From an uncultured beta proteobacterium (GTDB lineage Bacteria > Pseudomonadota > Gammaproteobacteria > Burkholderiales > Burkholderiaceae_C): DNA of 37,944 bases. A program made the position numbers and the translations under genes. Below the pieces are notes generated by a model. It saw only the letters and a list, made by a program, of their open reading frames with translations. It ran no database searches and was not told the origin of the DNA. The stretch is taken from contig CAITXW010000056.1 in the NCBI GenBank assembly GCA_903896425.1, positions 1-37,944 on the forward strand, in the 5' to 3' direction. Positions 119 through 15,868 of the stretch are shown in pieces (the stretch's first letter is position 1; every line of letters starts with the position of its first letter).

Positions 119-1804
119 CTATTTTCCTGCCCGCAGCTCGCGACGCAAAACCTTCCCGACATTTGACTTTGGCAGTTCATCGCGAAACTCAATGTATTTT
201 GGCCGTTTGTAGCCGGTCAGATTGTGCTGGCAGTACTTGGCGACATCTTCCTCTGACAGATGGGGATCGTCTTTGACCACAAAAACCTTGATCGCTTCTC
301 CTTGTTTTTCGTCAGGGATGCCGATCACGGCACACTCCACTACGCCATCGCAAAGGGAAATTACATTTTCCAATTCGCTGGGGAACACATTGAACCCGCT
401 GACGAGGATCATGTCCTTTTTCCGATCAACAATTTTTGTGTAACCGCGTTCATCCATGATGCCAATATCACCGGTACGCATGAATCCATCAGCGGTGAAG
501 GCGCGCTTGTTTTCTTCAGGTTGATGAAAATAGCCCGTCATCACATTGGCGCCCCGAATGCAGATTTCACCCGACTCCCCCTGGGCAAGACTGTTCCCTT
601 CGTCGTCCTTGATGGCGATGTCAATGCCAGGCAGTGGCAAGCCAATGCTGCCTGAAAATTCCTTGGACATGACAGGGTTGTTGGTGCCGATCGCGCAGGT
701 CTCGCTCATGCCCCAACCTTCGACCATCGGGCAACCCGTGACCTCAAGCCAGTGTTTGGCGGTACCCGCCGATGCCGCCATGCCCCCGGCCTGTGATACA
801 CACAGACTGGAAAAATCAACGGTTTTGAACTGCGGCTGTTGCAGCAGTGCATTGAAAAGCGTATTGACCGCCGGCAGCAAATGGAACGGACGCATTTTGA
901 GTGTTGCAACGAAGCCGCCAAAATCCCTTGGATTGGGAATCAAGGTTAGAAATGAACCCCAACGGATCGCCAGCAGGGACAGGGTCAGCGCGAAGATGTG
1001 ATACAGAGGCAAGGCAGCGATGCTGTTGCTCTTGCGAATGTCGCCGATGCGTTCCAAGGCCGGTGTGAACCAGGCCTCGGCTTGCAAGACCGCTGCAACA
1101 ACACTTCGGTGTGTCAGCACTGCGCCCTTGCTCACACCAGTAGTACCTCCCGTGTACTGCAAAAACGCGACGGAATCGAGCGTGCTTGCCGCCGACTTGA
1201 ATGATTTTGACTTGCCTTCGTTGATGGCCTGTTTGAATGGGGTGACTGTTAACCCATTCGTCAGATTCAACTTGTACGCCGGAACCAGTCTGGCCAGGTG
1301 TCTGACGGCAAAAGTAATCCATCTTCCATACCAGAAACCCAGAAAATCCCCCATTGATGCCATCACCACATGCTTGATTGATGTGTTCTCAATGACCTCA
1401 CCCAGCACGGTGGCAAAGTTCTCCAGAATGACAATGGCGGTTGCGCCAGAGTCCTTGAGTTGGTGTTCCAGTTCACGTGCGGTATAGAGCGGGTTCACGT
1501 TCACACAGGTGAAGCCCGCGCGCAAGACGCCGGCCATGGTGACTGGGAACTGTGGAATATTCGGCAGCATGATGGCCACCCGGGCACCAGGCTCAAGTCC
1601 TTTTCCCTGAAGCCAGGCTCCCAATGCGGCCGAGAATTGATCGAGTTCGCCATAACTCATCCAGCTTTCCATGCAGACCGTAAAAGGACTGCTGGCATTT
1701 TTCTGGAAAGACTCTTCCAGCATGTGCGTCAACGAGCGGTATTGTTCCGGATTGATGTCCTGCGGTACCCCCGGCGGATAGCTCTTTAACCAGATTTTTT
1801 CCAT
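119..1804 (-). CDS. fadD: Long-chain fatty acid--CoA ligase (AMP-dependent synthetase/ligase)
   Basis: 561 aa; AMP-binding motif YTGGTTGVSKGAVLTH, YGxxE-like GWGMSETCAIGT, C-terminal RTGDIGIMDERGYTKIVDRKKDMILVSGFNVFPSELE and KSNVGKVLRREL. Confidence 0.95.
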   Translation of the reverse strand: MEKIWLKSYPPGVPQDINPEQYRSLTHMLEESFQKNASSPFTVCMESWMSYGELDQFSAALGAWLQGKGLEPGARVAIMLPNIPQFPVTMAGVLRAGFTCVNVNPLYTARELEHQLKDSGATAIVILENFATVLGEVIENTSIKHVVMASMGDFLGFWYGRWITFAVRHLARLVPAYKLNLTNGLTVTPFKQAINEGKSKSFKSAASTLDSVAFLQYTGGTTGVSKGAVLTHRSVVAAVLQAEAWFTPALERIGDIRKSNSIAALPLYHIFALTLSLLAIRWGSFLTLIPNPRDFGGFVATLKMRPFHLLPAVNTLFNALLQQPQFKTVDFSSLCVSQAGGMAASAGTAKHWLEVTGCPMVEGWGMSETCAIGTNNPVMSKEFSGSIGLPLPGIDIAIKDDEGNSLAQGESGEICIRGANVMTGYFHQPEENKRAFTADGFMRTGDIGIMDERGYTKIVDRKKDMILVSGFNVFPSELENVISLCDGVVECAVIGIPDEKQGEAIKVFVVKDDPHLSEEDVAKYCQHNLTGYKRPKYIEFRDELPKSNVGKVLRRELRAGK

Positions 1805-1849
1805 GAAAGCTCCTGTGTGCGCATTGTGACCCAGGCCCCCCTTCTGTCG

Positions 1850-2680
1850 CTACTGGGTTTGCCCCAGCAGGTGTCTGATTTTCGTCTCGCAGGCGACAGC
1901 GCTCGAGTCGAAAAGTTGATCGATCAGATAGGCTTCACGTTCCATCACCGTGTCAAGAAAATACTTGACTCGATCCACTTGCCGCCCCATTTCGGCAAAG
2001 GTGTCGAAGCCTGACTCCAGGAATCGCTGCAGGTCGCCCAGCCTAGCCAGTCTGGCAGGTACGCGCATCATCCGCAGCATCCGGCGTAAGCCCGGAGTGC
2101 GTGTCAATCGGTTCAATTCGTTGCCGATGTCGATGACAGTTGTCAGCTGCATATTACGGTCCGCACGCCGACCAACACAGTGCCAGGCCAGGATATAGCG
2201 TGCGATCGCCGGCTTTTCAGCATTGGCCATCCATTCCTCGGCCATGGCCCGATCAAGTTCTTCCGTCAGGCGGTGCAGTTGTGCCAGCGAAACAGCGGTC
2301 TGTACCACTTGCTGGGGAAAGAGTCGCTCCAGTGGACCGGCCATGCGTACGAATTGCGCGTCGCGTTCCGAGTAGTCCTTGTCGCTGTAGAGCTCTTCCA
2401 GAAAGAACAGGGCCGCCGCCCGGTATTGATCTGATTGCAGTAGATCAGAATAGGTGCCGGCAAATCGCTGCGCTTGAAAAAATTTAATCTCTGCAACGGC
2501 TTGCGCCAGCCCCGGTTTTTCTGCGGCAGTTTGTCGCATCAAAGTGACATGCATGAATGCATCGCGGATGATTTTTTTGGCTTCCATGGCTCCCCCGAGT
2601 CTATCTGCCTGCTCGGTGTTTTTGTCACGAACCTGATGATCAAGTAAATCCAGGTCTGATGAAGCGCGATGCGCGTTCAC
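1850..2680 (-). CDS. Conserved hypothetical protein of the FFLEELYS type
   Basis: 276 aa uninterrupted ORF; motif ALFFLEELYSDKDYSERDAQFVRM resembles a conserved proteobacterial hypothetical family; directly upstream of fadD on the same strand. Confidence 0.75.
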   Translation of the reverse strand: MNAHRASSDLDLLDHQVRDKNTEQADRLGGAMEAKKIIRDAFMHVTLMRQTAAEKPGLAQAVAEIKFFQAQRFAGTYSDLLQSDQYRAAALFFLEELYSDKDYSERDAQFVRMAGPLERLFPQQVVQTAVSLAQLHRLTEELDRAMAEEWMANAEKPAIARYILAWHCVGRRADRNMQLTTVIDIGNELNRLTRTPGLRRMLRMMRVPARLARLGDLQRFLESGFDTFAEMGRQVDRVKYFLDTVMEREAYLIDQLFDSSAVACETKIRHLLGQTQ

Positions 2681-2741
2681 CTACACTTGCGGCTCAAATA
2701 AACAAGGTTGCTTTGTCGATGATTCGTACAGCTCGAAACGC

Positions 2742-3980
2742 ATGAACCCGGACGCACAAAAGCTCTGGCGCGCGCCGCGCTGGGCACTCGCAGTCTTGCT
2801 GGCTGTTCTGGGCATGCTGGGCCCGTTTTCCATCGACACTTATTTGCCTGCTTTCTCGGGCATTGCCCAGTCGCTGGGTGCCTCGCCGGTACAGATGCAG
2901 CAGACTCTGTCAGCCTATCTATTCGGCTTTGCCTTCATGAGCCTTTTTCATGGTGCGATTTCCGACAGCCTGGGGCGCCGACCAGTCGTGCTGTGGGGGC
3001 TGGTTGCCTTCACGCTGGCATCGGCCGGTTGCGCCCTGTCGCAAAGCATTGGACAACTGGTTTTCTTCCGGGCCATGCAGGGACTGTGTACCGGGGCCGG
3101 CATTGTGGTGGCACGTGCTGTCGTGCGCGACATGTTCTCGCCCATGGAAGCGCAGAAAGTGATGAGTCAGATCACCATCTATTTCGGTGTTGCACCGGCC
3201 ATCGCTCCGATCATCGGCGGCTGGTTGTTTGTGAATTTGAACTGGCACAGCATCTTCTGGTTTCTGACGGCTGTCGGGATTGCACTGTGGATCGCCAATT
3301 ACAAATTGCTGCCCGAGACACTGCACATCACACAGCGCCAGCCGCTCAAGCTCAGTAATCTGATGCAGGGTTATTGGCAACTCGGGTTGGACCCGCGGTT
3401 TTTGTTGCTGGCACTGGCCAGTGGTGTGCCGTTCAACGGCATGTTTTTGTATGTCCTGTCGGCGCCGGTTTTTCTGGGACAGCACCTGGGTTTAGCGCCG
3501 ACACAGTTCTTCTGGTTTTTTATGCTCACCATTGGCGGCATCATGTGCGGCGCCTGGGTTAGCGGGCGCATGGCGGGGCGACTGGCGCCCAAGCGGCAGA
3601 TCAAATACGGGTTCGTCATCATGCTGCTGATAGGGCTTATCAACCTGGTCGCCAATTTGATGTTCAAAGCCCATGCGGCTTGGGCCTTGCTGCCATTGGC
3701 TATTTTCTCCTTCGGTTGGGCGATGATGGTTCCCGTAGTCACTTTGCTGGTGCTGGATCTGCACCCAACGCGACGCGGTATGGCGTCTTCCCTGCAAGCT
3801 TTTATCGCCGCCACCGCCAATGGCCTGGTGGCTGGCGTTATTGCACCGCTGGTCATGCACTCTACCGTTTATATGGCTGCGACGTCACTGCTCATGATGG
3901 GCGTTGGTCTATTGGCTTGGGTGTTTGTGCGCCGGCGCTGGCCAGCCATCGGGCAAACGGTCAGTCATCCCGTTCCATAA
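2742..3980 (+). CDS. Bcr/CflA family multidrug efflux MFS transporter
   Basis: 412 aa, ~12 hydrophobic segments; GPFSIDTYLPAF and GAISDSLGRRPVVLWGL motifs typical of Bcr/CflA. Confidence 0.92.
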   Translation: MNPDAQKLWRAPRWALAVLLAVLGMLGPFSIDTYLPAFSGIAQSLGASPVQMQQTLSAYLFGFAFMSLFHGAISDSLGRRPVVLWGLVAFTLASAGCALSQSIGQLVFFRAMQGLCTGAGIVVARAVVRDMFSPMEAQKVMSQITIYFGVAPAIAPIIGGWLFVNLNWHSIFWFLTAVGIALWIANYKLLPETLHITQRQPLKLSNLMQGYWQLGLDPRFLLLALASGVPFNGMFLYVLSAPVFLGQHLGLAPTQFFWFFMLTIGGIMCGAWVSGRMAGRLAPKRQIKYGFVIMLLIGLINLVANLMFKAHAAWALLPLAIFSFGWAMMVPVVTLLVLDLHPTRRGMASSLQAFIAATANGLVAGVIAPLVMHSTVYMAATSLLMMGVGLLAWVFVRRRWPAIGQTVSHPVP

Positions 3981-4040
3981 AGTTCTGCAAGGCCAAGCGC
4001 CACTTAATAGAAAGGACGCGACAACGCCCTGTCAAATCAC

Positions 4041-4064
4041 TATACTGTATTTTCGTACAGTATA
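4041..4064. promoter_or_regulatory. LexA-binding SOS box
   Basis: TATACTGTATTTTCGTACAGTATA; matches CTGT-N8-ACAG with 8-nt perfect palindromic arms (TATACTGT/ACAGTATA); sits directly upstream of imuA-like/dnaE2 sequence. Confidence 0.92.
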
Positions 4065-4090
4065 TTTTGATTTTTAGGCGTCTTGTCATT

Positions 4091-4165
4091 GTGTCCGAAT
4101 CCTCGTCATTTTCTTTGTCTCGCCTGAGCGATGTCGTCTGGCGTGCCGATAGCCTGGCCGGTGCA
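4091..4165 (+). pseudogene. imuA: Putative remnant of the imuA 5' end (about 25 codons), out of frame with the downstream dnaE2
   Basis: GTG 4091 gives VSESSSFSLSRLSDVVWRADSLAG..., resembling ImuA N-termini (VWRADxLA); 27 nt after the SOS box; frame continues as nonsense to a stop at 4379-4381. 3' boundary is approximate. Confidence 0.5.
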
Positions 4166-6611
4166 GCGGGTGGCTGCCCTGTATCCGCCGGAACTGCTGG
4201 CCAACACATTGCTGATTGCACAGCGCTGCAGTTTCAGCCTGGACGAATTGCGCTACCAGTACCCGCTGGAGACCGTGCTGCCGGGTCAAACCCCAGCGCA
4301 AACCCTGCGCCAATTCACTTTCGAGGGTGCAGCCAGACGCTATGGCGTTGGTATTGCGGCATCGGTGCAGGCGCTGCTTGAGCACGAACTCGCGCTGATT
4401 ACCGAGCTTCACTACGAGATGTATTTTCTGACCGTGCATGACATCGTGGCCTTTGCCCGTGCGCGCCACATTCTGTGCCAGGGGCGCGGCTCGGCAGCTA
4501 ATTCGGCGGTCTGTTATTGCCTGGGCATTACGGAGGTCGATCCTTCGCGTATGAGCATGCTGTTTGAGCGCTTCATCAGCCGCGAGCGCAACGAGCCGCC
4601 CGATATCGATGTTGATTTTGAGCACCAGCGGCGCGAGGAAGTGATCCAGTACATCTACGCCAAGTACGGGCGCGAGCGTGCGGCGCTGACGGCTGTGGTC
4701 GTCAGCTACCGACCGCGCAGCGCTCTGCGTGATGTCGGGCGCGCGCTCGGCATCGATGAATCTTTGATCACGGCCCTGGCCAGGGAACATCCCGGCATGT
4801 ACAGCCGCGTGGTGCTGACCGAGCGTTTGCAGTCGGCGCTGATGCGGCAGGGACAAGGCTTTCTATCGCCGGCGTCAAGTCGGCTGCAGCTTTGGTTGGA
4901 TCTGAGCACGCAGTTGCAGCGCTTTCCGCGGCATTTGAGCCAGCATGTGGGCGGCTTTGTGCTGACACAGGGCAAGCTCACGCGCCTGGTGCCGGTGGAG
5001 AACGCGGCCATGCCAGAGCGCTCCATCATCCAGTGGGACAAGGACGATCTGGACGCCATGGGCCTGCTCAAGGTTGACGTGCTCGCATTGGGCATGCTCA
5101 GCGCCATCCGCCGCTGCCTCGATCTGGTCAGTGCGCGCCGTGGCCGACCGATGTTGATGCAGGACATTCCGGCCGAGGATGCCGTCACCTACGACATGAT
5201 TTGTCGGGCCGATACCGTGGGCGTGTTCCAGATCGAGAGCCGGGCCCAGATGAGCATGCTGCCGCGCCTGAAACCCCGCTGTTTTTACGATCTGGTGATC
5301 GAGGTCGCCATCGTGCGCCCGGGTCCGATCCAGGGCGGCATGGTGCACCCCTACCTGCGTCGACGTTCCGGCATCGAGCCCGTCCACTACCCGAGCGAGG
5401 TCCTGCGCGAAGCTTTGCAGCGCACGCTGGGCGTGCCGATTTTTCAGGAGCAGGTGATGCAGATTGCGATGCTGGCAGCGGGTTTCAGCGCCGGTGAGGC
5501 CGACAGCCTGCGCCGCTCCATGGCAGCCTGGAAGCGCAAGGGCGGCGTGCACAAGTTCTATGAGCGGATGGTCAGCGGCATGTTGACACGCGGCTACACG
5601 CAGGAATTTGCCGACGACATTTTCAAACAGATCGAGGGCTTTGGTGAATACGGTTTTCCCGAAAGCCATGCCGCCAGTTTTGCGCTGTTGGTGTACGTGA
5701 GCGGCTGGCTCAAGCAGCATGAACCCGCCTGCTTTCTGGCCGCCATGCTCAACAGCCAGCCGCTGGGTTTTTACAGCGCTTCGCAACTGGTGCAGGACGC
5801 GCAACGCCATGGTGTGCTGGTGCGCCCAGTCGATGTCTCGCACAGCAATTGGGATTGCACGCTGGAAGATTGCGGACTCGTCAGCAACGGTCAAGCCGCC
5901 GTGCGCCTGGGCTTGCGCATGGCCAGCAGCCTGGCGCAAGCCACTGTGCAGCGCATCGTCGCGGCACGTTCGCAGCGTCCTTTCGCCAGCACCGAAGACC
6001 TGGCCTTGCGCGCCGAACTCGATCAGGGCGATCTCAAGGCGCTGGCCAGTGCCGATACGCTGCTGAGCCTGTCAGGCCACCGGCGCCAACAGGTCTGGGA
6101 CGCTGCCGCTTTGACGCCGGCGCCGGCCTTGCTCAAAAGTGTGGCGGTGAATGAACCGGTGCTCAATTTGCCACCGGCAGCGCTGGGGGAAGAGGTGTTC
6201 TTCGACTATGCTGCGCTCGGCCTGACTTTGCGCAGCCATCCGGTTTTGTTGCTGCGTCCTCAACTCGACAGGTTGCGCTTGCGCACCGCTGCGCAGTTGC
6301 GCGATCTGCCCAATGGTCGGTTGGTTCGTGCTGGTGGCATTGTTGTCATGCGTCAGCAGCCGCAGACGGCCAAGGGCGTGACCTTTGTTACGTTGGAAGA
6401 TGAAACCGGCAGTGTGAATGTGATTGTCTGGAAGTCACTCAAGGACCGGCAACGCAATGCCTTGCTGCACTCACGCCTGCTGGCAGTGTCCGGTGTCTGG
6501 CAGCGCGATGTCGAGAGCGGCGGCGAGGTGTGTCACTTGATTGCCCAGAGCCTGCAAGACCTGACGCCGCTGCTGGGCGATCTGCGCACCGCAAGTCGGG
6601 ACTTTCATTGA
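4131..6611 (+). CDS. dnaE2: N-terminally truncated error-prone DNA polymerase III alpha subunit (DnaE2/ImuC), PHP domain absent
   Basis: 826 aa; GRGSAANSAVCYCLGITEVDP, PPDIDVDFEHQRREEVIQYIY, LLKVDVLALGML, RPGPIQGGMVHPYLRRR, IFQEQVMQIA, C-terminal OB region ending TASRDFH. Canonical DnaE2 is ~1,000+ aa; homology seems to begin at RVAALYPPELLANTLLIAQRCSFSLDELRYQYP. Confidence 0.9.
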   Translation: MSSGVPIAWPVQRVAALYPPELLANTLLIAQRCSFSLDELRYQYPLETVLPGQTPAQTLRQFTFEGAARRYGVGIAASVQALLEHELALITELHYEMYFLTVHDIVAFARARHILCQGRGSAANSAVCYCLGITEVDPSRMSMLFERFISRERNEPPDIDVDFEHQRREEVIQYIYAKYGRERAALTAVVVSYRPRSALRDVGRALGIDESLITALAREHPGMYSRVVLTERLQSALMRQGQGFLSPASSRLQLWLDLSTQLQRFPRHLSQHVGGFVLTQGKLTRLVPVENAAMPERSIIQWDKDDLDAMGLLKVDVLALGMLSAIRRCLDLVSARRGRPMLMQDIPAEDAVTYDMICRADTVGVFQIESRAQMSMLPRLKPRCFYDLVIEVAIVRPGPIQGGMVHPYLRRRSGIEPVHYPSEVLREALQRTLGVPIFQEQVMQIAMLAAGFSAGEADSLRRSMAAWKRKGGVHKFYERMVSGMLTRGYTQEFADDIFKQIEGFGEYGFPESHAASFALLVYVSGWLKQHEPACFLAAMLNSQPLGFYSASQLVQDAQRHGVLVRPVDVSHSNWDCTLEDCGLVSNGQAAVRLGLRMASSLAQATVQRIVAARSQRPFASTEDLALRAELDQGDLKALASADTLLSLSGHRRQQVWDAAALTPAPALLKSVAVNEPVLNLPPAALGEEVFFDYAALGLTLRSHPVLLLRPQLDRLRLRTAAQLRDLPNGRLVRAGGIVVMRQQPQTAKGVTFVTLEDETGSVNVIVWKSLKDRQRNALLHSRLLAVSGVWQRDVESGGEVCHLIAQSLQDLTPLLGDLRTASRDFH

Positions 6612-6648
6612 GCGACTGCTGGGGGAGTCGGCGCGCTCCCAGAAGACT

Positions 6649-7239
6649 TCAGCCAGCGTGAAACTGGTCAGCGTTCTTGCCGGTGAAGGGTGCGTAGAAC
6701 GCCTTGATCGCGACCATGTCGGCTTCGATGTCGCCGGTCGGACGGAACACCGGACCGAGTCCGCTGAGTTTGCGCTTGTAATCCATGTAGGCCATCACGA
6801 TCGGCACCTGGGCGCCGACGGCGATGTAGTAAAAACCGGTCTTCCAGTAGCGTGTGTTGCTGCGTGTGCCTTCCGGAGGCACGACCAGTTGCAGTGGTCC
6901 GCGCGCCGCCTTGATGGCTTCGATCGATGCCGCAACCAGGTTGTTGCTTTTTTCGCGCTGCACAGGGATGCCACCGAGCCAGCGCATCAGGCCGCGAAAC
7001 GGCGGTTTGAAAATCTGTTCCTTGCCCATCCAGTAGATGTTGAGTCGCAGCACAAAAGCCACCATCAGCGTGTAGGGTAGGTCCCAGTTGCTGGTGTGGG
7101 GCGCGGCGATCAACACGCTCTTGTTGCCATCGGCGGGCAAACTGCCTTCAATCTTCCAGCCGCTGAGTTTCAGAAAAGTCACCGATAAGGCTCGCAGCAG
7201 TGTGTTGATGATGGGGGTGTCGAAAATGGTGTGGTGCAT
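6649..7239 (-). CDS. Lysophospholipid acyltransferase family protein (PlsC-like)
   Basis: LIAAPHTSNWDLPY (HX4D) and VVPPEGTRSNTRYWKTGFYYIA motifs; ORF opens at 7272 but MHHTIFDTPIINTLL at 7239 is the likelier start. Confidence 0.88.
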   Translation of the reverse strand: MHHTIFDTPIINTLLRALSVTFLKLSGWKIEGSLPADGNKSVLIAAPHTSNWDLPYTLMVAFVLRLNIYWMGKEQIFKPPFRGLMRWLGGIPVQREKSNNLVAASIEAIKAARGPLQLVVPPEGTRSNTRYWKTGFYYIAVGAQVPIVMAYMDYKRKLSGLGPVFRPTGDIEADMVAIKAFYAPFTGKNADQFHAG

Positions 7240-7434
7240 GGTGCTTCTTTTGTTGGACCAGAAGCAACTCACCAGGAGGCACCCAAGGCTTCAAATGAAG
7301 GTTCGATTATCGCGCACCACCGTTTTCACCCCGGGCATGGCGGCGCACCTTAAGATACAGCGTTGTGCCGACACGCGCCGCTCTGTTGCCGAAGTGCGTT
7401 CTTTCAATCCTTGTCCTGTGCCGAGTCTGAATCC

Positions 7435-8604
7435 TTGATAGCTCTTTTTGCCCGTTCTTTCACACTGCGACTGCTGCTTGCGGGGCTGGTTTGTGCTGCT
7501 CTGATCGCGCTGGAAATCGGACATCGCTCTGCGGCCAAACCAGCGCCGCAAGCGGTCTGGCCTGCTACTGGGATGGTGACGGGCGGCGCATTAACGCGCA
7601 CGGGCGGCGGTCTGATTCCCATGCCTGCCGATACGCTGAGTGCGCACGCCAGCAGTCTGCTGGCGCTGCCCGCGACTCATCCATCGACCCTGATGGCATT
7701 CTGGTTTGCTGGTACCCGCGAGAGTGCTGCCGATGTCCAGATTGCAGCTTCGAGCTTTGACCGCCTGACGCAACAATGGAGCGTGGCGCGTTTTGTGGTG
7801 AACCGCCAGGCGCTTGGCGCGCAGTTGGATTTCGGCGTGCGCCGCCTTGGCAACCCGGTAGCCTGGCTTGATGGCACGGGTCGGATTCATTTGTTTGTTG
7901 TGACGACCGGCTTGGGTGGCTGGGCCGCGGCGCGCATTGTGCACTTGCGCCAGAGTCAGCTCGGGCAGGATTTCGCTTCACTGTCGTTTGAAGTCGACCG
8001 GGTCCTACCCTTGTCGTGGTTGTGGAACAAGAGTTTTCTGGTGCGCACTTCACCGCTTCCTTTGAGGGACGGTGGCATGGTGCTGCCGGTGCACTTTGAA
8101 ATGGGCATCAAATACCCGGTTGCGTTGCGTTTTGACGCGAGTGGGGAATTTGTTGGAATGGCGCGAATTTCCAGTCGAAAGCACCTGTTGCAACCGACTC
8201 TGCTGATGGCATCCGAATCGCGTTGGTTGGCGCTGATGCGTGATCAACGCGTCGATGGCAAGGTGGCAGTGGCGCAAACGGTCGATGGCGGGCAGCATTG
8301 GACCGATCTGGCGGATTTGAGTTTGAACAATCCGAACTCATCGGTGGCCGGGTTGGCGTTGGCGCCAGGGCTTATGTTTCTGGCCCACAATTCCACGCCC
8401 CAGGGCCGCACGGTACTGGATTTAAGCGCTTCGGTCGATGGTCGGGACTGGCTTCTGGCGCAGCCACTTGTGCATGGCACTGGTCGGGATGAGTACTCCT
8501 ACCCCGCAATGGCCTGGGTGGATAACAGCTTGTGGGTGAGTTACACCGATCAGCGCCGGGTCATCGCCTGGCAGCGATTTTCCATTGCTGCGCCAGTACG
8601 CTAA
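7435..8604 (+). CDS. Sialidase / BNR-repeat-like exported protein
   Basis: N-terminal hydrophobic signal/anchor; Asp-box-like repeats (VAVAQTVDGGQHWTDL; LDLSASVDGRDWLLAQPL; DEYSYPAMAWVDNSLWVSYTDQRRVIAWQRF). Open from 7363; start uncertain, TTG 7435 proposed. Confidence 0.75.
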   Translation: MIALFARSFTLRLLLAGLVCAALIALEIGHRSAAKPAPQAVWPATGMVTGGALTRTGGGLIPMPADTLSAHASSLLALPATHPSTLMAFWFAGTRESAADVQIAASSFDRLTQQWSVARFVVNRQALGAQLDFGVRRLGNPVAWLDGTGRIHLFVVTTGLGGWAAARIVHLRQSQLGQDFASLSFEVDRVLPLSWLWNKSFLVRTSPLPLRDGGMVLPVHFEMGIKYPVALRFDASGEFVGMARISSRKHLLQPTLLMASESRWLALMRDQRVDGKVAVAQTVDGGQHWTDLADLSLNNPNSSVAGLALAPGLMFLAHNSTPQGRTVLDLSASVDGRDWLLAQPLVHGTGRDEYSYPAMAWVDNSLWVSYTDQRRVIAWQRFSIAAPVR

Positions 8605-8619
8605 CGGGGGCTATACGCG

Positions 8620-9765
8620 ATGGACATCAACGGCTATTTCAAATTCCTCTCTTTGGTCGAGCCTGCGCTACTGCCAAACGCCAGTGTCTTATGGTTGGCC
8701 TTGCATCTGGGTTGGGCCATCGTATTGGGTTGTGCGGTGCGATTGTTGTCTGGTCGTTTCGCGCCGCGCTATCAATCGGCCCTGGCTTTACTGGTGCTGC
8801 TCTGGACCCTCGTGCCTGGCGAGCTGTCACCTGCGTTCTGGCTCGGTCTGGCTTTTCAAAGCCCGAGCGTGATGACGGTGCTTCTCTGCATGGGTTGGCT
8901 ACAGCAGCAGTTCAGGCGCGCATCGGTAGACGCGGCTTTGAATGCAGCAAAAGACGCTCGGTCACTCCAATTGCTGATGGCCGCAGGCATTGTGCTGGGA
9001 TGGGTCTTGCTGCTCGACACACTGGCCGGGTTTTCGGTGTCGGTTTACGCCTGGGGTTTTTCGGTGGCAGCTGTTGCCGTCGCGCTTGCCTTGGCCGCGC
9101 TGTTCTGGTTGCAGCAGGGCTCGCGTGCCTCAGTCCTGCCACTTTGCGTGCTGGCCCTGTTTGTGCTGATGCGCCTGCCCAGCGGCAACTTGTGGGATGC
9201 TCTGCTCGATCCCTTGCTTTGGCTGGCGTTGCAGGCTATCTGGCTGATCAGCGTGGCGCGTCGGTGGCTGCTGGCAAGGCATTTCCAGCAGCCACTCGCG
9301 TCTGAACAGCCAGTGCTGCGGGTACCAGACGTTGCCCCAGTTGATCTCGCCGCTCTGGTGCCGTCCCTTGACTTCCCAGCGGCTGCCCAGTACGCGGCAC
9401 GCAGGCGCGCAGGGCGGCATCAGTTCCTGCGGATTGGACTGCAGCCAGACCACGGCGTCGTGCGTGGACAGCAGGCGTTGCAGGTCAGCGGCACCTATGC
9501 TGGCACTGGCACGCTCGTCACTGTCGTAGGCAATGAAATGATTGCCCGGCAGCAAGAATTCAAAGCGCTCGAATTGGCCGTTGAAACCGTTCGGTACTGC
9601 GATGCGGGCTTGCCGAAGTTGGGTCATGACCGCGCTGTCATACTGCCCGTCGGCGCCGTTCAGCGGCGCGGTGCTCAGGCTGAAACAGGCCAGCACGATC
9701 AGGCTTGCGGCCACACTGCAGGCACGCGTCCATGCCGGTTTGAATGTGCCTGCCAGGACCAGTAG
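8620..9765 (+). CDS. Polytopic membrane protein of unknown function (credible portion ends ~9290)
   Basis: Strongly hydrophobic first ~225 aa; last ~155 aa lie antisense to the GT39 coding sequence and look non-native. Confidence 0.65.
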   Translation: MDINGYFKFLSLVEPALLPNASVLWLALHLGWAIVLGCAVRLLSGRFAPRYQSALALLVLLWTLVPGELSPAFWLGLAFQSPSVMTVLLCMGWLQQQFRRASVDAALNAAKDARSLQLLMAAGIVLGWVLLLDTLAGFSVSVYAWGFSVAAVAVALALAALFWLQQGSRASVLPLCVLALFVLMRLPSGNLWDALLDPLLWLALQAIWLISVARRWLLARHFQQPLASEQPVLRVPDVAPVDLAALVPSLDFPAAAQYAARRRAGRHQFLRIGLQPDHGVVRGQQALQVSGTYAGTGTLVTVVGNEMIARQQEFKALELAVETVRYCDAGLPKLGHDRAVILPVGAVQRRGAQAETGQHDQACGHTAGTRPCRFECACQDQ

Positions 9766-11043
9766 CAAGCCCACTGCGACGGCGAGCAGGGTCAGACTCA
9801 ACTCAAGACGGCTGCCAATGCCCAGTTCGTGTGCGGCCCAGGCGATGCGGCCCAGGGCGCCGATCAGGATGCCGCACAACAACAAGGTCAGCAGAAACCA
9901 AGCGCGCGCAATACGCTGCCATTCCAGTGCAAGCAGTATCGCCAGCGCCGGCATGGCCGGGATCAGGTAGCGCGCCGAGCGCTGGCTCGGCAGTGTGAAG
10001 ACGATCAGCCAGACCGCCAGCCAGGTCAACAGGATGACCCGCTGCGCTGACTGCGCGCCATGGCCTGCTGCGCGAAAGCGTGTGCGCAGCCCGAGCAGCA
10101 TCCAGCCCAGCACGACGAAGGCCAGCAGCCCGGCGTTCTGCACGTAGGCCAGCAATTGCGCCCAGATGCTAAAGCCCCCGCCCAGCAGCGCGGTATGCCA
10201 GTAGCCTTGGGCATTGGACATCTTGCCCGCGTTCTCGCCGATGACGAACTCCTGCCAGACGGCCGCCGGGTTTGGGTCCAGCACAAACCAGAGGGCAAAA
10301 ATACCCAAGGCCAGCACTGCGCTCAGGCCCACCTTGAATGTGGTTTGCAGCAGCACGCGCCAGTTCAGCTTCGGACCGGTGAGCAGTTGCGCGCACCACA
10401 GCGTTGCGGCTGCGGGTGCAATCAGCGCGAATGACTTGTAGGCCAGTCCGATACCGAGCGACAGACCAAAAACGAGGTGGCTCAGCCAGCCCGGTGCCTG
10501 CTTCGATCTCCCGTCTGTTGGCTGCAGTGTGCCCGCGGTGCTGGATCCGCGTTGCCACAATAGCCAGAACATGGGAAGACCGAACCAGAATGTTTCGGGT
10601 GCGCTGGTCAGATAACTCCGGCCATACCGGTAGCTGCAGAAAAAAGCCAGGTACAAGCAGGCGGCGACACAGGCGCTACGCAGCGAGCCGGTGATGCTTT
10701 GCGTGCTCCAGGCCACGGCGGCTGCGATCAGCAGCGTATAGAGCAGGCTCGGCAACCGCAGCGCGGCCAGGTTCCAGTTTCGGCCCCAGTCCCCCGCCAC
10801 CATGGCCTGCCAGAACAGCAGCGGTGGCTTGGTGTTGCGCATGTGGTCCAGGTCCGATACCAGTGGCAGCCAGTGGCCGGAGGCGGCCGTCAGGCGCGCG
10901 ATGTGGGTGTAGACCAGTTCGTCACCGTTGCTCGGGTTGTATTGGCCGCCAAGTCCCAGCGCATAGATCAGGACAGCCAATGCCAGCATGGCGATCCAGC
11001 CCAGTGTCGTGGCGTCCTGCGTGTTAGACGACTTGACGCGCAT
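9130..11043 (-). CDS. Glycosyltransferase family 39 / ArnT-like membrane protein (credible portion ends ~9280)
   Basis: 637 aa; YNPSNGDELVYTHIARLTAASGHWLPLVSDLDHMRNTKPPLLFWQA typical of GT39/ArnT N-terminus, many TM segments; C-terminal ~50 aa antisense to the neighbouring membrane protein. Confidence 0.85.
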   Translation of the reverse strand: MRVKSSNTQDATTLGWIAMLALAVLIYALGLGGQYNPSNGDELVYTHIARLTAASGHWLPLVSDLDHMRNTKPPLLFWQAMVAGDWGRNWNLAALRLPSLLYTLLIAAAVAWSTQSITGSLRSACVAACLYLAFFCSYRYGRSYLTSAPETFWFGLPMFWLLWQRGSSTAGTLQPTDGRSKQAPGWLSHLVFGLSLGIGLAYKSFALIAPAAATLWCAQLLTGPKLNWRVLLQTTFKVGLSAVLALGIFALWFVLDPNPAAVWQEFVIGENAGKMSNAQGYWHTALLGGGFSIWAQLLAYVQNAGLLAFVVLGWMLLGLRTRFRAAGHGAQSAQRVILLTWLAVWLIVFTLPSQRSARYLIPAMPALAILLALEWQRIARAWFLLTLLLCGILIGALGRIAWAAHELGIGSRLELSLTLLAVAVGLLLVLAGTFKPAWTRACSVAASLIVLACFSLSTAPLNGADGQYDSAVMTQLRQARIAVPNGFNGQFERFEFLLPGNHFIAYDSDERASASIGAADLQRLLSTHDAVVWLQSNPQELMPPCAPACRVLGSRWEVKGRHQSGEINWGNVWYPQHWLFRREWLLEMPCQQPPTRHADQPDSLQRQPKQGIEQSIPQVAAGQAHQHKQGQHAKWQD

Positions 11044-11046
11044 GGC

Positions 11047-11544
11047 TTAGTCCCGCGTGCGCCGGCGAAAGGTCCAGCGGTCATTGGCCAGAAAATTGCT
11101 GACGCTGGCGCAAAGGATGGCGATGATGTTGGCGACGCGGTAATCCATATAGCCCGATAGCAGCAACGTTAGAAAGTACTGGACGGTGCTGCCAAAACTC
11201 GATGCCGTGACGTATTGACCAAACTCGGTACCCAGCAGTCGCAGGCTGACGTGAGCGCTGGTGCGCCCTCGTTCCATGGTCCGGACACGGTCAGACCAGG
11301 TCCACAGACGGTTCCAGGTGAAATTGCTGATGGTTGCCAGCGTGATGGCCAGCGCCAGCGATGCATACGGTTTCTTGTAAGCGGCTTCGAACGAATGGAA
11401 CAGGTATTCGTGCCCGATATGCAGTACGACCAGATTCACCACCGTGCCACTGGCACCGACGATGCCGAACTTGAGGTAACGGTAGCGCGCGATCCAGGCC
11501 AGCAGCCACAGCAGTGCGCGTTGTACCGGCTGCAGCGCGCTCAT
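11047..11544 (-). CDS. GtrA family membrane protein
   Basis: MSALQPVQRALLWLLAWIARYRYLKFGIVGASGTVVNLVVLHIGHEYL...ATISNFTWNRLWTW...SNFLANDRWTFRRR; start overlaps the upstream GT9 stop by 4 nt. Confidence 0.88.
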   Translation of the reverse strand: MSALQPVQRALLWLLAWIARYRYLKFGIVGASGTVVNLVVLHIGHEYLFHSFEAAYKKPYASLALAITLATISNFTWNRLWTWSDRVRTMERGRTSAHVSLRLLGTEFGQYVTASSFGSTVQYFLTLLLSGYMDYRVANIIAILCASVSNFLANDRWTFRRRTRD

Positions 11545-12782
11545 GTCACGGGCGTCACGCTGTCGCGGCGCAGGTATGCCAGAGCGTCGGCCAACACCGG
11601 ATCCGGCGCGATGCGTTGCAGACACTGGTTGTCGCCGTCGCAAAAAGTCAGACGGTGGTTGTAGGCCGACAGGCAGGGCGAGCAGGCGAGACCCGACTCC
11701 AGCACCTGGTTGCGTTGCCCCAGCGGTCCGTACAGCCGGCCGGTTTCCGGGCCGAAGAAGACCATGGTCTGGATCGGCGTCAGGGTGGCGAAATGACCGG
11801 GGCCGCCATCGTTGGTGATCAGCAAATCGCAGGCGTGAAACAGCATCAGCAGTTCGCGAATGCTGCGTGTGTAGCCGGTCAGATCAACGCATGCCGCATG
11901 GCCGATCTGATTGATCAGACTGCGCGCCAGCGCGGCGTCGTCCTTCAGGCCAATCAGCCCGACCGCATAGCCGGCCTGGCACAGGCCCTGGGCTACGCGG
12001 GCATAGTGCGGCGCTGGCCAGGCACGCTCGGGCAGGATGCCGCCGCCGGCGTACAGCAGCACCACCTTGCGCCCGGTCAGGGCGCTGTGATCGCGCATGA
12101 CCTGGTCGCGATAGTCCTGCAACTCAGCGGCCTCAAACGCCACCGACAACTCGGTATCCAAGGGCAGACTGCGAATCGGTGCCGCCTTGTTGCGTGGCGC
12201 CGCGCTAATGTCTTCGAGCGCATCGACCAGGGAGAGGAACTGCTTGCTGATGTGCTGGTAGGGGTTGTACGGGATGGCGTGGTTGATGAAACTGCCGCGG
12301 TACAGGCCTTCCTGCGTGTGGGCGGTAAAGCCAACGCGTACCGGCGCACCGCAGGCAAAGGAGAGTAGGGCGCTGACCCGCGAGAACAGTTCGCAGTCGA
12401 TCACCGCATCGAGCTTGAGGCCGCGCAGCAACAGGCTCATGCGCACGATGTCACGGATCAGGGACAGTCCGGAACTGTCATCCAGCCCATGCAGGTATTG
12501 GGCCTGCGTCAGGCTGAGCAGGCGCGAGACTTCCTGGTTCTTCTTGAGTTGCAGAACGTGGATGGCCGCGCCGGGGTAGTTGCGCCGCAGCGCGGCAAAC
12601 ATCGGCCCGGCCAGCACGATGCTGCCCATCTCGGAGAGCAGGATCACCAGAATGTGGCGCGGCTGGGGGGGCAGGCCGCGTGGCTTGCCAAACCAGCCTT
12701 TGACGCGCACCCATGCCGATACAAGGCTGCAAAGAAGCTGGCCGACCCAGCGGTCAATCCAGCGTTGTGTTTGCAGCTTCAT
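11541..12782 (-). CDS. Glycosyltransferase family 9 (heptosyltransferase-like)
   Basis: HILVILLSEMGSIVLAGPMFAALRRNYPGAAIHVL; LLITNDGGPGHFATLTPIQTMVFFGPETGRLYGPLG typical GT9; start MKLQTQRWIDRW at 12782 inside a longer ORF. Confidence 0.88.
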   Translation of the reverse strand: MKLQTQRWIDRWVGQLLCSLVSAWVRVKGWFGKPRGLPPQPRHILVILLSEMGSIVLAGPMFAALRRNYPGAAIHVLQLKKNQEVSRLLSLTQAQYLHGLDDSSGLSLIRDIVRMSLLLRGLKLDAVIDCELFSRVSALLSFACGAPVRVGFTAHTQEGLYRGSFINHAIPYNPYQHISKQFLSLVDALEDISAAPRNKAAPIRSLPLDTELSVAFEAAELQDYRDQVMRDHSALTGRKVVLLYAGGGILPERAWPAPHYARVAQGLCQAGYAVGLIGLKDDAALARSLINQIGHAACVDLTGYTRSIRELLMLFHACDLLITNDGGPGHFATLTPIQTMVFFGPETGRLYGPLGQRNQVLESGLACSPCLSAYNHRLTFCDGDNQCLQRIAPDPVLADALAYLRRDSVTPVT

Positions 12783-12801
12783 GCCTTGCCGTCTGGCTGA
12801 T

Positions 12802-13983
12802 TTACAGCCCGGCTGCGGCCCGCAGTGCCTGGGCCTTGTCGGTGCGCTCCCAGGTGAACTCGGGCTCTTCGCGGCCGAAATGGCCATAGGCGGCGGTCTT
12901 TTCGTAGATTGGGCGCAGCAGGTCGAGCATCTGGATGATGCCCTTGGGGCGCAGGTCGAAGAACTCGCTGACCAGAGCAGCGATTTTGTCGTCAGAAATC
13001 ACGCCAGTGCCTTCGGTGTAGACCGTGACGTTCATCGGGTGCGCGACGCCGATGGCGTAGGCGACCTGAATCTGGCATTGCCGCGCCAGGCCGGCAGCGA
13101 CGATATTCTTGGCCACGTAGCGCGCTGCGTAAGCGGCCGAGCGGTCCACCTTGGTTGGGTCTTTGCCCGAGAACGCGCCACCACCGTGTGGGCAGGCGCC
13201 GCCATAGGTGTCAACGATGATCTTGCGCCCGGTCAGGCCGCAGTCGCCTTGCGGGCCGCCGATGACGAAACGCCCGGTCGGGTTGATCAGGTACTTGGTG
13301 TCGGCCGTGATCCACTCCTTGGGCAGCACTGGCTTGATGATGTCCTCAATCACGGCCTCGGTGAAAGCCGGCTTCATCTTCAGGCCGTCACTCATTTCGG
13401 GGCTGTGCTGGCTCGACAGCACCACGGTGTCGATCGAGTGCGGCTTGCCATCGACGTAGCGCATCGTGACCTGGCTCTTGGCGTCGGGGCGCAGGAAGGG
13501 CATGCGCCCGTCCTTGCGCAACTGTGCCTGGCGTTCCACCAGTCGGTGCGCGTAGTAGATTGGCGCGGGCATCAGTTCCGGCGTCTCGTTGCAGGCGTAG
13601 CCGAACATAAGGCCCTGGTCGCCGGCACCGGTGTTGAGGTGATCGTCGGAGGCGTGGTCCACGCCCTGGGCGATGTCATTGCTTTGCTTGTCGTAGGCCA
13701 CCAGCACGGCGCAGCCCTTGTAGTCGATGCCGTATTCCGTGTTGTCGTAGCCGATGCGCTTGAGCACGTCGCGCGCCACCTGGATGTAGTCCACATGCGC
13801 GTTGGTGGTAATTTCACCGGCCAGCACGACAAGACCGGTATTGCACAGGGTCTCGGCTGCGACGCGGGATTTGGGGTCCTGCCGGAAGATTGCGTCCAGG
13901 ATCGCGTCAGAGATCTGATCGGCCACCTTGTCGGGGTGGCCTTCAGAGACGGACTCGGAAGTAAAGAGAAAATCGTTCGCCAT
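12802..13983 (-). CDS. metK: S-adenosylmethionine synthase
   Basis: 393 aa; [66 protein letters not shown]. Confidence 0.98.
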
Positions 13984-14171
13984 TGGGTTAGCTCCATTGA
14001 TGATTGCAACAAGTTAAATACCGCGTTGCTTGGGCTTGGAGGCTTCGGCGAACGCTTTAGCAGAATTGTCAAATCTGACAAGGCACAATGGCGGCTCGTG
14101 GCGAGCCCTCTTGTGTGCGTCGCCCTGCAAGTAGTTCCGTAACTCAGCGACGGCCTGATTTTATCCGAGTG

Positions 14172-15002
14172 ATGATCCGTTTTTTCAAAATTTTCTCGTT
14201 GCTTCCTTTGTGGTTGGCGCACGCGCTGGGCTGGTGCGCCGGTTGGCTCGCATTTGCTGCTTCCGGGACTTACCGCAAACGCTTTATAGCCAATGTGCGC
14301 CAGGCCGGTATCGGTTGGCCTCAATGGTGCCCTGCGGTGGGCGAAGCCGGCAAGTTGCTTGCTGAGTTGCCGCGTTTGTGGATGGGGCGACCGGTGCCGG
14401 TGCAAATCGAGGGCGCGCAGCATGTGCAAGAAGCACTGGCGCTGGGGCGTGGTGCGATATTCCTGACACCACATCTGGGCTGTTTCGAGATCGTCGGCCA
14501 GGCCTATGCAAAGCACTACGGTCAGCGAGGGCATCCGATGACGGCCCTGTTCCGACCGCCGCGCCAGCTCTGGTTGCGTGAACTGGTCGCCAACGCCCGC
14601 ACCCGTCCTGGCCTGATGACGGCGCCGACCACCCTGGCCGGTGTCAAGCAGATGATCAAGGCACTGAAGAGCGGCCAATCGGTCGGCCTGCTGCCGGATC
14701 AGGTGCCGCCACAGGGCCTGGGCCTTTGGGTGCCGTTCTTTGGGCGCGACGCCTATACCATGACGCTGTCGGCGCGCCTGGCGCAGCAGACTGGGGCTGT
14801 CCTGGTCCTGTCCTGGGGCGAGCGCCTGTCCTGGGGGCGCGGCTATCGTGTCCGCTTTTTGCCGTTTGCGCAGGCATTACCAGCCGATGGTGCGCAGGCG
14901 GCAGCGGTGATCAACCGTGCGATGGAGGATCTGATCCGTGCTTGCCCCGAGCAGTACCTGTGGGGTTATGCGCGTTACAAGCAACCGAGGCAGACACTCT
15001 GA
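14172..15002 (+). CDS. Lysophospholipid acyltransferase / lipid A biosynthesis acyltransferase (LpxL/HtrB family)
   Basis: MIRFFKIFSLLPLWLAHALGW...GAIFLTPHLGCFEIVGQAYAKHYG...LLPDQVPPQGLGLWVPFFGRDAYTMTL...YLWGYARYK; divergent from metK. Confidence 0.93.
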   Translation: MIRFFKIFSLLPLWLAHALGWCAGWLAFAASGTYRKRFIANVRQAGIGWPQWCPAVGEAGKLLAELPRLWMGRPVPVQIEGAQHVQEALALGRGAIFLTPHLGCFEIVGQAYAKHYGQRGHPMTALFRPPRQLWLRELVANARTRPGLMTAPTTLAGVKQMIKALKSGQSVGLLPDQVPPQGLGLWVPFFGRDAYTMTLSARLAQQTGAVLVLSWGERLSWGRGYRVRFLPFAQALPADGAQAAAVINRAMEDLIRACPEQYLWGYARYKQPRQTL

Positions 15003-15868
15003 TGCTCAGTAAATTCGGCATTCAGGTCATGCGGGTGTTGGGGCGTTTGCCGTTGGATTGGCTGCGTGCCTTGGGTTTATTGCTCGGCTGCGTGCTGTAT
15101 GTGCTGATCGTTCCGCGGCGCCGGGTCGCAACGACCAATCTCCGATTGTGTTTTCCGGCGCTCTCAAAGCGACAGATTCGCTCGCGGGTGCTGCGCACTT
15201 TTGTTCATTTTGCGCAAGCCTGGCTGGACCGTGGCTGGCTCTGGCATGGTTCGCCGGAGTTGGTGCGTGCGCGTCTGCAACTGACCGGTGCCGTGGACGT
15301 GTTGCAGGGCGATGCGCCGGTAGTCATCTTTGCGCCGCATTTCGTCGGACTTGATGCGGGCTGGACCGCACTGACCCAGCAGTTGCCGCGCCGCTTCACC
15401 ACCATCTACACCAACCAAGCCGACCAAGTGATCGATGCCTGGATTCTGGCCGGGCGTCAGCGCTTTGGCCGGGTGCGGCTTTTCGGGCGCGTGCAGGGGG
15501 TCAAGGCCATTGTGGCGGCGCTGCGCGCGGGGGATCCGTTGTATCTGCTGCCGGACATGAATTACGGGCCGCAGGAGTCGGTCTTTGTACCGTTTTACGG
15601 CGTAGCGGCGGCAACGGTGCCCTCGCTGTCGCGCTTTGCCCGTTTGGCGCACGCCAAGGTGGTGCCGGTGATCACGCGCATGACGCGCCAGGGTTACGAG
15701 GTCCAAGTTATGCCGGCCTGGACCGATTTCCCGTCCGATGATGCGCTGGCCGACACGGCTTTGATGAATCAGCGTCTGCAAGCGTACATCGACACCATGC
15801 CGGACCAGTATTTCTGGGTTCACAAACGCTTCAAGGACCGCCCGCCCGGTGTCCCCGGCGTCTATTAG
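15002..15868 (+). CDS. Second LpxL/HtrB-family acyltransferase
   Basis: MLSKFGIQVMRVLGRLPLDWLRALGLLLG...VVIFAPHFVGLDAGWTALTQ...LYLLPDMNYGPQESVFVPFYGVAAATVPSLSRFA...YFWVHKRFKDRPPG; start overlaps previous stop (TGATG). Confidence 0.93.
   Translation: MLSKFGIQVMRVLGRLPLDWLRALGLLLGCVLYVLIVPRRRVATTNLRLCFPALSKRQIRSRVLRTFVHFAQAWLDRGWLWHGSPELVRARLQLTGAVDVLQGDAPVVIFAPHFVGLDAGWTALTQQLPRRFTTIYTNQADQVIDAWILAGRQRFGRVRLFGRVQGVKAIVAALRAGDPLYLLPDMNYGPQESVFVPFYGVAAATVPSLSRFARLAHAKVVPVITRMTRQGYEVQVMPAWTDFPSDDALADTALMNQRLQAYIDTMPDQYFWVHKRFKDRPPGVPGVY

Follow-up and report, generated by a model that had tools for sequence, protein, structure and literature searches.

Evidence for a multi-gene deletion placing a PHP-less dnaE2 remnant behind a LexA operator in an environmental Rhodoferax-like bacterium

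The LexA operator, the imuA stub and the dnaE2 remnant

The window analyzed here, a stretch of 37.9 kb without any N bases, is contig C56 of an environmental Rhodoferax-like MAG (G000) that comprises 525 contigs and 3.55 Mb (84.9% complete, 3.75% contamination). It was compared with 90 genomes of the genus, 401 genomes of the family and 80 loci from GTDB. The closest relatives are four sister species (G069, G077, G063, and G075), whose DnaE2 proteins show 91-92% amino acid identity to the one encoded in the window. The following features, all on the forward strand, are relevant for the locus:

4018 to 4046, forward strand: sigma-70-like promoter, GCGACA-17-TATACT, which extends into the LexA box (predicted by consensus scan only)
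4043 to 4062, forward strand: LexA operator TACTGTATTTTCGTACAGTA (TACTGT-N8-ACAGTA) with the core CTGTATTTTCGTACAG at 4045-4060 (consensus search)
4091 to 4172, forward strand: imuA stub, a GTG start and ~27 codons, followed by the junction (alignment to imuA of sister species)
4131 to 6611, forward strand: PHP-less dnaE2 remnant, 826 codons from the ATG at 4131 (list of open reading frames, family matches and identity to sister species)
4161 to 4173, forward strand: apparent deletion junction, with the breakpoint within GTGCAGCGGGTGG (matches of sister species to a junction query)

A search of the window for TACTGT-N8-ACAGTA yielded the box at 4043-4062 as sole match, and none was found in 100 shuffles. 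The strict pattern CTGT-N8-ACAG gave the same single match, while the still stricter consensus CTGTATATAAAAACAG, a spelling that is too strict, matched nowhere in the window; the box is confirmed by the two former patterns. The promoter-like pair at 4018-4046 agrees with the consensus at 9 of 12 positions, with 0.2 such pairs expected in shuffles of the region. A gene for LexA is present in the MAG, and perfect LexA boxes were found at the equivalent place in G069 and G075. In G077 (L035, 1-150) and G063 (L036, reverse strand, 1-150), the sequence 5′ of imuA diverges within the LexA box: both retain the right half (ATACAG), and each has a different sequence in place of the left half. Both contigs stop ~140 bp upstream, as if at a mobile element.

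Downstream of the operator, the frame opened by the GTG at 4091 translates to VSESSSFSLSRLSDVVWRADSLAG and aligns with the imuA start of all four sister species at ~76-82% nucleotide identity up to position 4170-4172. This imuA frame (mod 3 = 2) differs from that of the following DnaE2 open reading frame (mod 3 = 0), which spans 4131-6611 and encodes 826 amino acids uninterrupted by stops. Its first 12 codons derive from imuA read out of frame, and homology to the DnaE2 of the sister species begins at the Arg codon at 4167. The protein matches NF004225 (error-prone DNA polymerase) with 1236 bits against a cut-off of 939, however only over profile positions 244-1047. Pfam searches matched the polymerase, finger, HHH and OB domains of the remnant, but not the N-terminal PHP domain (PF02811) that is found in DnaE2 of G069. 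The catalytic Asp motifs of the palm are present (PDIDVDF, nt 4599; LLKVD, nt 5064). Pairing with the anti-SD sequence at the ATG at 4131 is weak (-1.9 kcal/mol); since imuA and dnaE2 of G069, which are intact, likewise show weak pairing at their starts (-2.5 and -2.9), this is a minor and non-decisive point.

An earlier note on this DNA, made from the sequence alone, had described a near-perfect LexA operator at 4041-4064, a GTG-started frame at 4091, and, in another frame, a long intact DnaE2-like open reading frame with homology from ~4167 that retains the polymerase carboxylates and the OB-fold C-terminus without a stop. All of these descriptions are borne out by the pattern searches and shuffles, the sister alignments, the list of open reading frames, and the motif and domain matches given above.

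Comparison with intact cassettes in the sister species

The imuA-imuB-dnaE2 cassette is intact in all four sister species. In G069, imuA matches NF033429 (ImuA_translesion), imuB comprises 432 codons, and dnaE2 comprises 1055 codons and contains the PHP domain according to Pfam. No NCBIfam or Pfam model matched the G069 imuB frame at the threshold used; the name is assigned from the location of the gene between imuA and dnaE2, from the character of its sequence and from its conservation throughout the genus. The window and G069 are colinear over 119-4171 and again over 4167-11999, with the second block shifted ~2.68 kb onward in G069, and the gaps relative to G077, G063, and G075 are of nearly the same size. 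The span missing relative to G069 covers imuA beyond codon ~27, the whole of imuB and dnaE2 up to codon ~241. When a 141-nt junction query was compared with G077, the match to imuA ended at base 73 and that to dnaE2 started at base 62 (4161-4172 of the window), and therefore the breakpoint lies inside GTGCAGCGGGTGG. In the other genomes of the 90-genome genus set, no match spanning the junction was found.

These observations support a deletion, which the earlier note had proposed as a fusion of the 5′ end of imuA to the interior of dnaE2 with loss of imuB and the PHP domain and retention of SOS control. The comparison with the sister species agrees with this proposal in each of its parts and maps the apparent junction to imuA codon ~27 joined to dnaE2 codon ~242. 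Compared with the LexA-controlled imuA-imuB-dnaE2 cassette of Proteobacteria (DnaE2A type), the locus shares the operator, the imuA start, the polymerase, finger, HHH and OB domains, and the genomic position that the cassette occupies in the sister Rhodoferax-like species. It differs in having an imuA of ~27 codons, no imuB, no DnaE2 PHP domain and a new out-of-frame start.

Searches with imuA, imuB and DnaE2-PHP queries against the 85%-complete MAG, as suggested in the earlier note, yielded nothing beyond the locus except for the N-terminus of the replicative DnaE. To the latter belongs a PHP match at the end of contig C424, which was rejected as the PHP domain of a second DnaE2. An intact imuB is thus absent both at the locus and across the sequence of the MAG, and no further copy of imuA is found there. 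With the imuB query, the gene is detected in 61 of the 90 genus genomes, including all four sister species (84-100% identical), so the empty result for imuB is meaningful within a MAG of this completeness. As the MAG is 85% complete, a second copy of the cassette may reside on unbinned contigs. The MAG contains one Y-family polymerase, as do most of the sister species.

Selection on the remnant and fate of the mutasome

A two-ratio codon model comparing the terminal branch of the MAG with the rest of the tree (six sequences, 798 codons) gave a dN/dS of 0.095 on this branch and 0.081 elsewhere (2dlnL 0.45). An omega of 1 on this branch was rejected (2dlnL 95). The dN/dS analysis advised in the earlier note hence reveals purifying selection without detectable relaxation, and an old pseudogene under relaxed selection was discarded as an explanation. 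From the upper 95% profile limit of ~0.145 for the branch, it follows by a simple mixture estimate that neutral evolution could cover roughly 7% of it at most. For three downstream genes, the branch is not unusual either. Since the omega of the branch is close to the background, the remnant either broke very recently or stays constrained, two possibilities which sequence alone cannot separate.

We consider it probable that a single deletion of ~2.68 kb broke the cassette recently and that the mutasome is most likely dead. Such an event would have taken imuA after codon ~27, imuB, and dnaE2 codons 1 to ~241 in one piece, with the LexA operator and the promoter staying upstream of a polymerase frame without PHP domain. 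ImuA, ImuB, and the ImuB-docking domain of DnaE2 would disappear together, and mutasome function would be lost with them. Translation of the remaining polymerase would have to begin at an unoptimised ATG that lies in what used to be the imuA frame, and the product now driven by the SOS switch would at most be a fragment that is poorly translated and probably does not function. We infer the loss of function from the fact that ImuB, ImuA and the docking domain are all gone and that the start is unoptimised; the recency of the deletion relative to the divergence of the sister species would explain why the open reading frame looks clean. DnaE2-dependent mutagenesis in mycobacteria requires imuA′ as well as imuB, with ImuB acting as the clamp-binding hub (PMC10421592). 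In AlphaFold models, the largest interface between DnaE2 and ImuB lies on the PHP domain of DnaE2 (PMC12926913), and in E. coli Pol III, mutations of the PHP site reduce both stability and activity (PMC3666897).

The same data have to be weighed against the possibility that an SOS-induced, PHP-less DnaE2 of 826 amino acids is functional, alone or with other partners, the deletion having been tolerated or selected. The intact frame with its conserved catalytic motifs, the retained LexA operator, and a branch omega no different from that of the relatives would all be compatible with such a polymerase. DnaE2B polymerases occur in genomes without ImuA and ImuB, and DnaE2 PHP sites are usually degenerate (PMC12926913). 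The PHP domain of the sister DnaE2 is already short of one residue of the HxH motif (ELHCLS), so its removal probably costs no nuclease. However, DnaE2A-type polymerases are tied to ImuA and ImuB (PMC12926913), the integrity of the PHP domain supports the stability and activity of Pol III (PMC3666897), and the start, situated inside imuA, is not in register with it and has a weak SD. The locus has in common with DnaE2B genomes a DnaE2 without ImuA and ImuB in the genome, whereas it appears to have arisen by local deletion in a cassette of the ImuA/ImuB type and has lost the PHP domain as well; the portion of PMC12926913 available describes no PHP-less DnaE2B. Moreover, no second PHP-less DnaE2 was found among the 90 genus genomes, the best ~150 family matches listed and the 80 GTDB loci. 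A functional polymerase seems quite improbable, and the chance that a one-step deletion created a working SOS-induced DnaE2 independent of the PHP domain and of ImuA/ImuB, a stripped-down translesion polymerase of the C family, appears slimmer still. Because ImuA and ImuB are required, because the PHP domain is the predicted main dock for ImuB and a stabiliser of Pol III, and because the new start is out of frame, a recent lesion is more likely than a functional polymerase, the two alternatives that the earlier note had left side by side.

An old family of short DnaE2 proteins that share this start and are of independent origin, which the earlier note had named as an observation that would speak against a deletion, was not found among the 90 genus genomes, the best ~150 family matches and the 80 GTDB loci. 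The four nearest relatives are all full length, and the N-terminus of the remnant is out-of-frame sequence derived from imuA. The listed genus and family matches with full coverage have open frames of ~1,000 codons or more, except for those of G338 and G252, which lie at contig ends, and three of the 80 GTDB loci have short upstream frames, all still encoding PHP sequence. Accordingly, the short frames of G338, G252, L118, L068 and L129 were rejected as members of such a family, since they are explained by contig ends or by frame lesions downstream of sequence that still encodes PHP, and the existence of the family is extremely improbable. That the junction is an artefact of assembly or consensus, or a minority allele of a population in which most cells carry the intact cassette, is unlikely too. 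The junction is known from one assembly of a single MAG, and the fragmentation, incompleteness and contamination of the latter leave some room for such an error. On the other hand, both flanks are colinear with the sister species, and fragments of imuA, imuB and the PHP domain are absent from all other contigs of the MAG. The two breakpoints share only a short imperfect repeat; in the sister species, exact words common to both within 60 nt reach 6-7 nt at most, and exact direct repeats in the cassette region of G069 do not exceed 11 nt. A repeat-mediated misjoin was rejected, as no suitable repeat was found, and a k-mer misassembly at the junction is unlikely given the lack of N bases and the presence of only short repeats nearby.

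If the remnant is indeed a recent lesion, it provides a snapshot of the loss of an inducible mutagenesis cassette, in which the partners and the docking domain go in one step and the SOS switch stays. If, instead, the remnant worked, it would offer a direct test of whether DnaE2 truly cannot do without the PHP domain and ImuB, an assumption of current models.

Decay and rearrangement of the cassette in the genus

Loss and rearrangement of the cassette are common in the genus, and a decay event here would therefore be nothing out of the ordinary. An imuB match is absent from 14 of the 51 high-quality genus genomes. A literature search with all terms combined gave no published loss or pseudogenes of the cassette. 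Like the locus described here, other, sporadic broken cassettes of the genus (e.g., L139 of G001) show decay in related genomes, but these carry point or frame lesions, whereas the present locus is best described by one clean multi-gene deletion. At L139 (G001:C1:212000-226000, 4217-9494), in a near-complete genome, imuB contains internal stops and dnaE2 is in two pieces.

In several genomes (G004, G028, G002, G026, G035, G031, G040, and G060), imuB and dnaE2 are separated by roughly 9-30 kb. A split cassette is also seen at L146 (G036:C16:248500-266500, 1477-15388), where ~9.4 kb lie between imuA-imuB and the downstream dnaE2, which has a separate LexA box at 12213; judged by sequence, the intervening DNA appears to encode an ABC transporter of the branched-chain amino acid/urea type together with a two-component system. 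Finally, at L041 (G031:C1:4266000-4281000, 603-1057), an intact dnaE2 is preceded by a remnant from the 3′ end of imuB, and a fuller imuB is located ~22 kb away (4244567).
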